Assembly (NCBI RefSeq): GCF_040436345.1
Contig: NC_133234.1
Coordinates: 9,486,446-9,550,445, forward strand
DNA length: 64,000 nucleotides
Origin: Pagrus major
Lineage: Eukaryota > Chordata > Actinopteri > Spariformes > Sparidae
Reading direction: 5' to 3'
Shown: piece after piece, positions 27,901 through 63,100 of the stretch
Numbering within the stretch: position 1 is the stretch's first letter
Layout: each line of letters opens with the position of its first letter
Notes under the pieces: generated by a model
Databases searched by the model: none
Told to the model about the DNA's origin: nothing
What the model saw: the letters and a program-made list of their open reading frames with translations, nothing else
Program-made: the position numbers and the translations under genes

Positions 27901-30900
27901 ACATTGTACTTTGGGTCACTATTAGTATGGTTTTTAACTGTACCTTTATGGTGCGTCAGACGTGGTTTTGTAAGAGATTTGTCACATAAACTACTACAGT
28001 CATGAAAAGAGGCTGCAGGGTTTTTACCAGGTGACTGTACAGACAACAAAGGTCAGTCACATGTTGTTGTCCTTGAGTAGTAGTGGGTGTTACAGTGTAC
28101 AGAACGACATCCAACCCCAGGCGTCCCATTAGAGCAAAACATTCCTCTACCAGTGAGCCAAAGGCAAATCACCACTCATCAAGGTTGATTTTTCAAGCAA
28201 CAGCGATCTTTACACACTGTACGTAAAATATATTTATACTTTTTACACCTCGACAGACAGACGTGCTTTACAGTAGCTTCTGAGGTAAGGTTCCTAGCTC
28301 ATGAGCACTAAAACAGTAATTGAGTATATATAACAGTATATAGTTTATGCTGTTTTATATTTTGTGAGGTAAAAAAATTATCTTTAAATACAAAGGATCC
28401 CAAATTACAAATTATTTTTCATAATCTGAGCACAGTGGGCAGAGTCACATTTTATGCAGGAAGTCAGTCAATCAAGTGAACTTGGGATCCTATTTTTCCA
28501 CCTGTTCTTGAGTCATAAACACAGGAGAAAACTTACTTGCTTTCAGTGCTTATGTATAGTACCATTTTGTATCTTAGCAATACAGTTCAACAGATGCTTG
28601 CTTTTTATGGAAGCCCTAAAGGGCCATGCATTCATACATTTTATTTCCTCCGTTTTCCCGTGATAACGAGTTCATTTCATTTGTTTTCTCGAGATCTCGA
28701 GTTATTATCTCGAAATAACAACTGCCGTTTTCCCGTGATAACGAGTTCATTTCATTTGTTTTCTCGAGATCTCGAGTTATTATCTCGAAATAACAACTGC
28801 CGTTTTTCCCGAGATAACGGGATAATTTTCTCGAGATCTCGAGATAACGAAACTTTGTTTTCCCGAGATAACGATATAATTAATTTGAGATCTTGAGAAA
28901 ACAAAAACGATTGTGTAGTATATTAAATCATTGCAGGAAACATCATTCAGTGTAGTAATGTCAGAGGAGCAGGAGCATATCGATCACTGCGTCACATATC
29001 TTCTCAATCAAGGCCTGACACAGGCTGAAATAGCATCATGCCTTGCTATTACAGATAATATACACATTAGTGTGCGTAATCTAAAAAGACAGTTAGCAAG
29101 GCTTCAGCTATATCAGCGGCACTATGTAAGTAAGCCTGATGTCGTCGTTAACTACATAGCTGACCAGCTACGATGTCCCGGGCGTCTCCATAATCTCAGG
29201 CCTATCATATCACAGTCATTATCTCGAGATCTCAAATTAATTATATCGTTATCTTGGGAAAACAAAGTTTCGTTATCTCGAGATCTCGAGAAAATTATCC
29301 CGTTATCTCGGGAAAACGGCCGTTGTTATTTCGAGATAATAACTCGAGATCTCGAGAAAACAAATGAAATGAACTCGTTATCACGGGAAAACGGCAGTTG
29401 TTATTTCGAGATAATAACTCGAGATCTCGAGAAAACAAATGAAATGAACTCGTTATCACGGGAAAACGGCAGTTGTTATTTCGAGATAATAACTCGAGAT
29501 CTCGAGAAAACAAATGAAATGAACTCGTTATCACGGGAAAACGGAGGAAATAAAATGTATGAATGCATGGCCCTTTAGGGCTTCCGTAGCTTTTGGCCCG
29601 TGGTCCAAGTTTCAGTTTTGGCCATCCAAGCGAAAATATTTGGGGACACGAGATGGACATGCACGCAATTGGATAGAACTACAACCAATCAGATCAGCGA
29701 AAACATGTGACATGGGACTTTGGAAATCTGGACCAGTGATGCTTTGGTCAGTCAATGTATCAAACACACCCCATATTAGATAAATAGCTGTGACTGGGCC
29801 ATCACGAACCAGGTCGCAGAGAAATCTGTCTGAACATGAGCTCACAGATTTGTCCAGTTCCCAGACTTACTTCACCCAGTAATCAAGTGTCAGTGTTATT
29901 TTTACATTACTGGATTACTGGGCTTGGATCAAAACAGCCCTTCTGTTGGGTGGTTCAACCCATGGGTACTGGGTAAAATTAACACCATAACGCTGACACG
30001 GGGTCAAACACCCAGTTGGTGCTGGATAAAGTTAACCCAGTATCGAGTCTGGGCTATATTGACCCTAAGGTGGGTCCATTTTTAACTCAGTGTATTTATA
30101 ATGATATATCAATAATTGTTTCTCAAAGTTTTGATTTGAAGCGGTTTTAGTACCTATTTTTGAATAAAATAAGTTAAAAAATAGTAGCTTTTCAAAAAAA
30201 CCCAAACAGCTACTGTTAGTGGACTCATCGTAAAAACACACACAGAGACAAGGTTACTGCTCATGTAGCCAGGACGCTAGCGGCGATGACCTCAGTTTTT
30301 GGTTTATTTAAATAATTCTCTGTGACATTCATGCTAGCCCATGACACACACGCACGCCCACGTGCACACTCCAGACTCAGGGCAAGGGTATTTATAAACC
30401 GTCACTGCTGTGTCCCCACATCCTGACACACATACCTTTACATCCATCATCTCCATTGCAATCCTCATCGCTCTCCGTGCCTCCTGCCCTCTCATCTGCC
30501 AGCACAAGAGGAATACCGCTAGTATTTACCTTTAGGGCACACACCAATTGGAAATACTTTAATCACCAGCTTTCCCCTTTGATCTTCTTCAAACCCTCTC
30601 ATCCTGACCGTCCTTCGCCTTCTTCAGATTCTCTTTATATGTTATCTTTCCACTCACTTAAAGTTATTTTTTTCCCAATTTCACATTTTATGAGCAAGAA
30701 AGTCACATTTATTTGTAATGTGAGAAACGCATAACTTCTTTGGCCCATACTGACCCTTCCTACTGGGCACAGCTTTTGCACTTTTGTATTAATTTGTCAT
30801 TCAACTTGTTTTCTATACTATCTCCGACTCAAAATGTACTTACTCCATGCTGTGCATCTAGTTTTTCATCCAAAATCATCTCTCTGTTCACATTTGATCA

Positions 30901-62501: not shown

Positions 62502-63100
62502 ATGGGGAGCGCTCCGTATCCAGCCGGTGAGTGGAAGGGGAAGGGGCGAGGCGGCCTGCAAGAGCTGGGCTGCATGCGCTGGAAGGTCAGCAAGCAGAAA
62601 GGTGGCGGTGGAGGAGGGGAGGTTGTGGCGGTGGGAGTGGAGGAGAGGAGGTCCAGGGATCCCACGGACTCTCAGCAGCAGCAGCAGCAGCAGCAGGATC
62701 TCTCATCCTCCTCTTCCTCCCTTACCCCCCCACTGCCTCCCCAAGCCTCTCTGACACCTCCGGCCATTTATCATGAGAAGCAGCGGAGGGAGCTGTGCGC
62801 CCTGCACGCGCTCAATAACGTCTTCCAGGACGGGACGGCCTTCAGTAGGGACACCCTGCAGGAGATATACCAGAGGTGGGGAAGCTGGTGTATCAATCTA
62901 AGTCAATAATTACCTTGTGTGTATGAAATGTTGTGGATAATCCGTTCATGTCTCTCCACAACTTGTTGCAGGCTTTCTCCCAGCACTCTGGTGACACCTC
63001 ACAAGAAGAGCATGCTGGGAAATGGGAACTATGATGTTAATGTCATTATGGCAGCCTTGCAGACCCGAGGGTTTGAGGCAGTTTGGTGGGATAAAAGAAG
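62502..63100 (+). CDS. josd1: Josephin-domain deubiquitinase JOSD1, 5' part (runs off window)
   Basis: Two coding exons join in phase: 62502-62875 (ATG; donor AG|GTGGGG) and 62972-63100 (GCAG acceptor; donor AAG|GTATGT). The remaining exons lie to the right of the window. The Josephin domain starts at about residue 90 with '[19 protein letters not shown]'; Cys99 is the catalytic cysteine. It continues with '[18 protein letters not shown]' and 'AVWWDKRR'. The catalytic His and Asn/Asp are in later exons. JOSD1 is favoured over JOSD2 by '[11 protein letters not shown]' and by synteny. Known role: membrane-associated, ubiquitin-activated deubiquitinase. The N-terminal extension before the domain is about 89 residues against about 26 in human. 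It contains a hexaglycine run, eight glutamines (58-65) and a six-serine run. A start at Met25 ('MRWKVSKQK') is an alternative. Confidence 0.92.
62673..62696 (+). repeat. josd1: Coding (CAG)8 repeat in josd1
   Basis: Eight consecutive CAG codons encode glutamine 58-65 of the predicted protein. Pure CAG codons make length variation by slippage plausible. Confidence 0.93.

Follow-up and report, generated by a model that had tools for sequence, protein, structure and literature searches.

The palindromic element at 28606-29588 of the window (the whole 64-kb stretch of Pagrus major DNA analyzed here) belongs to a family of cut-down DNA transposons that is large and fairly young. It is very probably a non-autonomous internal-deletion derivative of an IS3EU-type transposon, and clearly exemplifies a kind of element already known, with Galileo-like variation in its arms. 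Its three-level symmetry comes from the inverted ends, the tandem units inside them and a palindromic core common to a coding relative in the same genome.

Structure of the window copy

Direct reading of the sequence gives an element of 983 bp. The TA tips are part of it, which places each end 2 bp outside the limits of the earlier, sequence-only reading (28608-29586). The outer inverted arms (28606-28809 and 29385-29588) are 99% complementary across 204 nt, and the inner arm parts (28804-28901 and 29219-29316) are 97% complementary across 98 nt. The arms are long, as that reading stated, but the outer ends that it called perfect differ at one base near the tip (TATGG on the left, CCGTA on the right) and match otherwise. 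When the outer 20 bp were searched with up to three mismatches, they were found in the 64-kb window at the two element tips only. A 6-bp target duplication, GCTTTT, lies directly outside both arms, and the region between the arms contains a coding stretch that begins at 28958 and reads MSEEQEHIDHCVTYLLNQ...; the earlier reading had noted neither of these features, nor the TAYGG..CCRTA form of the ends. The features and the evidence for each are as follows.

28600..28605, no strand: left target site duplication GCTTTT (direct reading; family flank statistic, 33 of 53)
28606..28649, plus strand: outer left terminus, starting TATGGAAGCCCTAAAGGGCCATGCATTCA (arm alignment, end search, family termini)
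28650..28724, plus strand: 75-bp unit A, left copy 1, core 28688-28701 (tandem repeat and core search)
28725..28799, plus strand: 75-bp unit A, left copy 2, core 28763-28776 (tandem repeat and core search)
28800..28906, plus strand: inner left arm, unit B (core 28830-28843) followed by degenerate unit C (54-bp array row; alignment with the canonical copy and with L089)
28958..29191, plus strand: transposase N-terminal coding fragment, MSEEQEHIDH...QLRCPGRLH (protein matches; alignment with L089)
29216..29319, minus strand: inner right arm, units C and B in inverse order, core 29277-29290 (inverted repeat and core search)
29320..29394, minus strand: 75-bp unit A, right copy 1, with one difference, core 29343-29356 (tandem repeat and core search)
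29395..29469, minus strand: 75-bp unit A, right copy 2, core 29418-29431 (tandem repeat and core search)
29470..29544, minus strand: 75-bp unit A, right copy 3, core 29493-29506 (tandem repeat and core search)
29545..29588, minus strand: outer right terminus, finishing GGGCTTCCGTA (arm alignment, end search)
29589..29594, no strand: right target site duplication GCTTTT (direct reading; family flank statistic)

Unit A, whose borders were placed from the core positions, is present twice in the left arm (28650-28799) and three times in the right arm (29320-29544), the numbers previously proposed; Tandem Repeats Finder reported 2.3 copies at 28650-28819 and 3.3 copies at 29301-29544. The five units are 98.7-100% identical. 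Four have exactly the same sequence and the fifth, on the right, differs at a single position, so that the repeat, earlier described as exact, is exact in four units of five. The 14-bp palindromic core CTCGAGATCTCGAG occurs seven times in the 64-kb window, always within the element, and never in 100 shuffles. All five A units carry it, in agreement with the self-complementary core that had been described for each 75-bp unit. The two other cores (28830 and 29277) mark a second, shorter unit type (B), and a third, degenerate unit (C) lies further inward.

Three frames elsewhere in the window matched known protein domains, in keeping with an animal genome. The frame at 48470-48856 matches the N-terminal domain of Ku70 (XRCC6), with a Pfam Ku_N E-value of 1.5e-14 and a best E-value of 3.9e-25 to XRCC6 chains in the PDB. 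An open frame at 57145-57876 matches the AIG1 family (Pfam E 3.4e-25), and 62502-62909 contains the start of a Josephin domain whose E-value of 1.7e-5 falls just under the Pfam cut-off.

A family of mobile elements in the host genome

In the host genome (786 Mb, 25 contigs), the core CTCGAGATCTCGAG has 1806 exact occurrences, versus three for the reversed control. The search with the coding fragment gave at least 884 first-look candidates; the 150 that were scored have listed E-values of 2.6e-35 or lower. The search with the whole element as DNA gave at least 833, and 40 of them were scored. Single-copy occurrence, which the sequence-only reading had named as an argument against a mobile element, does not hold, given 1806 cores and at least 150 coding-fragment matches genome-wide. 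We found no exact match to the outer end of the element in viral contigs, and a search of one literature library with three exact sequence strings returned no match.

At the first 64 loci, a partner could be assigned to 53 left ends, a number that counts nested and mis-paired cases; when more than one partner was available, we retained the pairing with the best flank match. Identical 6-bp flanks were present in 33 of the 53 pairings, compared with 1.2% when partners were shuffled. Nine more pairings match at five of six positions, and in all an exact 6-bp duplication is absent in 20 of the 53. Identical flanks of 2, 3, 4 and 5 bp were seen in two, one, none and one of the 53 pairings, respectively, and flanks of 7-10 bp in none. 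Comparison of copies, suggested earlier as a check, did reveal target duplications. The left tips read TAC in 46 of 53 and TAT, TAA or TAG in four more, while the right tips read GTA in 48 and ATA in the other five.

From 84 loci we assembled a set of 57 distinct elements selected for a flank match of at least five of six bases (45 exact); there was no accepted end pair at 22 of the 84 loci. Lengths in this set range from 660 to 1730 bp with a cluster at 753-757, making the window copy an enlarged one. The many copies, the 6-bp duplications and the coding relative with the same end (described below) together strongly support the proposal that the element is mobile.

A coding relative and probable assignment to IS3EU

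When the host genome was searched for the Pfam family rva_4, 150 of 294 candidates were scored, yielding 154 matches; the 14 control genomes yielded no match. When the two lists were compared by eye, one of the 150 scored family matches (on C9) adjoined a listed rva_4 match. This locus, L089 (2501 bases), has the left end, the arm units and the leader of the family, and matches the canonical copy, L061, at 491 of 509 bases. Its frame of 246 aa matches rva_4 over part of the profile (positions 2-106 of 194, E 1.7e-20); the Pfam scan also listed rve, at an E-value of 4.3e-4 that is below its cut-off. Residues picked by hand have the spacing D-58-D-39-E. An IS3EU transposase is also expected to lack an HHCC zinc motif before the core and to have its first D 100-300 residues from the N-terminus. 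In L089 the first D is at residue 145, and the Pfam scan of the frame, a general scan and not a motif-specific one, lists no zinc domain. The sequence-only reading had suggested looking for a full-length relative with a transposase. L089 is a coding relative but not an intact one, as its integrase-core frame is broken by a stop and its right end was not found within the 2501 bases of the locus.

A PDB search with the L089 frame gave one weak match (E 0.07), which we took as chance. Three other rva_4 loci of equal score (L085-L087; G000 C7:32968265, C19:2265096 and C19:25385033) have open frames of 281 aa each. They lack family ends and cores in the stretch examined and are other integrase-core elements or host genes.

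The window copy tracks L089 up to about 29191 and then has other sequence followed by the right arm. Because L089 continues beyond this point into the integrase core, the window copy most probably derives from such an element by internal deletion, with a putative breakpoint at about 29191. A Pfam scan of the 106-aa window fragment alone found nothing above the cut-off.

Complete IS3EU families are reported always to have TA..TA termini and usually a 6-bp target duplication (PMC10045372), and the TET-bearing IS3EU elements of rust fungi are reported to have TAYGG..CCRTA termini with 6-bp duplications (PMC12730594). The present family has TA..TA termini of this TAYGG..CCRTA form (TAC at 46 of 53 left tips, GTA at 48 of 53 right tips), exact 6-bp duplications at 33 of 53 pairings, and an IS3/IS481-like integrase-core DDE transposase that is found in the coding relative L089 and not in the window copy. 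Termini, target duplications and integrase core make it very probable that the family belongs to IS3EU, and it may already be present in Repbase or Dfam. It differs in its long arms of diverged, expandable palindromic units, which are not described in the examined parts of IS3EU papers. As an IS3EU-type element, it would be bound at its ends and excised by a transposase made elsewhere, and would then be joined to target strands staggered by 6 bp.

The arms invite comparison with several elements of Drosophila. The Foldback and Tetris elements have long inverted repeats made of tandem units, a likeness to the present family that concerns arm layout alone. For Galileo, of the P superfamily, the target duplication is longer than 6 bp (7 bp). 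Membership of our element in a Foldback/Galileo type with internally repetitive inverted repeats would account for the way its arms behave, since tandem units within the terminal inverted repeats vary independently in each arm, but we consider such membership very improbable. The target duplications in the family are 6 bp, and flanks of 7 or 8 bp are identical in none of the 53 pairings. The integrase core of the coding relative is of the rva_4 type, and the Pfam scan of its frame lists rva_4 and rve only and no P-type transposase. With a different transposase superfamily and a different duplication length, the variation of tandem repeats between copies and between arms is a likeness to Galileo and not a sign of membership. 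In Galileo, the tandem repeats inside the terminal inverted repeats are reported to vary in number between copies and, independently, between the two repeats of a copy (PMC3573991).

Arm architecture and variation in unit number

In the canonical arm (L061), the motif TTTTCCCGWGATAACG starts at 48, 123 and 177 (75 and 54 apart), and there are exact cores at 83 and 149 and a degenerate core at about 203 (66 and 54 apart). This arm consists of three diverged units, and the same units are present in L089. Each arm descends from these three units, and tandem duplications would have arisen where neighboring units share a motif, by slippage or by unequal exchange. If unit 1 paired with unit 2, a 75-bp duplication would result at TTTTCCCGWGATAACG and one of 66 bp at the core, while pairing of unit 2 with unit 3 would give 54 bp. 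The layout of a single ancestral arm thereby predicts the tandem unit lengths (75, 66 and 54 bp) found in the family, and it suggests slippage or unequal exchange as their cause.

Core spacings in the 57 copies, counted with up to two mismatches, were 66 bp in 104 cases and 54 bp in 82, with 75 bp (four) and 74 bp (three) rarer; these include ancestral spacings, so expansions are counted only in part. Allowing three mismatches mixes registers (46, 74 and 44 bp), and 207 of 298 spacings are then within 1 of 54, 66 or 75. The core counts are unequal between arms in 40, 41, 47 and 43 of the 57 copies at zero, one, two and three mismatches, respectively, and which arm has the larger count also depends on the setting; base decay adds to the inequality. 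Since core counts depend on the mismatch setting and on base decay, we judged arm variation by arm lengths.

Arm length was taken from the coding fragment to each tip, and departures were measured against the commonest length. Both arms are within 6 bp of that length in 13 of 57 copies, and at least one departs in 44, with at least one arm longer in 29 and arms only shorter in 15. The window copy departs by +77 and +150. Other copies depart by +66 (twice), +132, +540, +108 and +162, and repeatedly by -54; many departures are not simple multiples of a unit. One full A unit per orientation is found in 41 of the 57 copies, compared with two and three in the window copy, and full A units differ between orientations in 14 listed copies. 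Unequal unit number had been interpreted earlier as ongoing gain or loss. Arm lengths and A counts confirm that unit number varies between copies and between arms, but the gain and loss they record is past and not demonstrably ongoing.

The right arms of two copies have grown into 54-bp arrays (L006:1762-2400, 11.8 units; L013:1762-2313, 10.4 units), each possibly the seed of a satellite. Arrays of such length could also point in the other direction, to units that are a satellite captured by the element and not born in its arms. This we regard as very improbable, as the canonical arms and the coding copy L089 have single copies of units to which the repeated ones are diverged relatives.

Homogenization and age

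The A units of the window copy have a mean identity of 99.5% among the five, versus 93.9% to 135 A blocks of other copies. This suggests recent duplication or homogenization in that copy, although 53 of the 135 blocks have an identity of at least 97% to the window copy's unit. We also considered homogenization of the two arms by gene conversion across the family, using the 41 copies with one A unit per orientation. Left/right identity was 0.953, versus 0.949 for permuted partners; 38 of 10000 permutations reached 0.953, and an arm's own partner was unbeaten by any other arm in only seven of 41 copies. If there is such an effect, it is no more than small. Across 117 A blocks, departures from the majority amount to 9.3% at CpG positions and 1.2% at other positions, as expected if CpG is methylated and decaying. 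The coding fragment is about 2% divergent from the majority among copies.

The retained coding fragment

An N-terminal fragment retained in so many copies might be a selected product, such as a truncated transposase repressor, for which the element is kept. A stop-free 78-aa stretch is present in 138 of the 150 scored copies (ranked by protein similarity), and the window frame continues through the right arm for 215 codons in all, a run made easier by the unit lengths, all divisible by three. For the 81-aa fragment, a single-sequence structure model has four helices, but its mean pLDDT of 52.8 makes it unreliable. Among 33 distinct copies fetched by DNA or pattern search (sequences identical to the protein-fetched set being merged), changes from the majority were 43 synonymous, 120 non-synonymous and four stop, close to the neutral shares of 0.292, 0.678 and 0.030 calculated with transitions weighted 4 to 1 against each transversion. 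A frameshifting indel was present in seven of these copies and an in-frame stop in three. The 54 protein-fetched copies had 82 synonymous, 162 non-synonymous and two stop changes, numbers biased by how those copies were picked. The near-neutral ratio gives no support to selection on the truncated frame, and the open frames are explained by the youth of the family, at about 2% divergence. A selected fragment is on these grounds very unlikely.

Possible function of the repeated cores

The palindromic cores repeated along the arms would probably serve as accessory sites for transposase binding, and they may also form cruciforms, as the sequence-only reading proposed. We suggest, as a tentative and rather unlikely extension, that the arms are evolvable arrays of such sites, in which slippage adds cores, copies with added cores mobilize better, and unit gain is favored among non-autonomous copies. 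The odd unit lengths (75, 66 and 54 bp) can be traced to the layout of one ancestral arm, and the family provides genome-wide copies with countable arm units in IS3EU, a superfamily on which few papers were found in the literature library used. Should mobility depend on unit number, these copies would form a natural series in which to test how accessory binding sites shape transposition; if it has no such effect, the arms would represent ordinary repeat biology.
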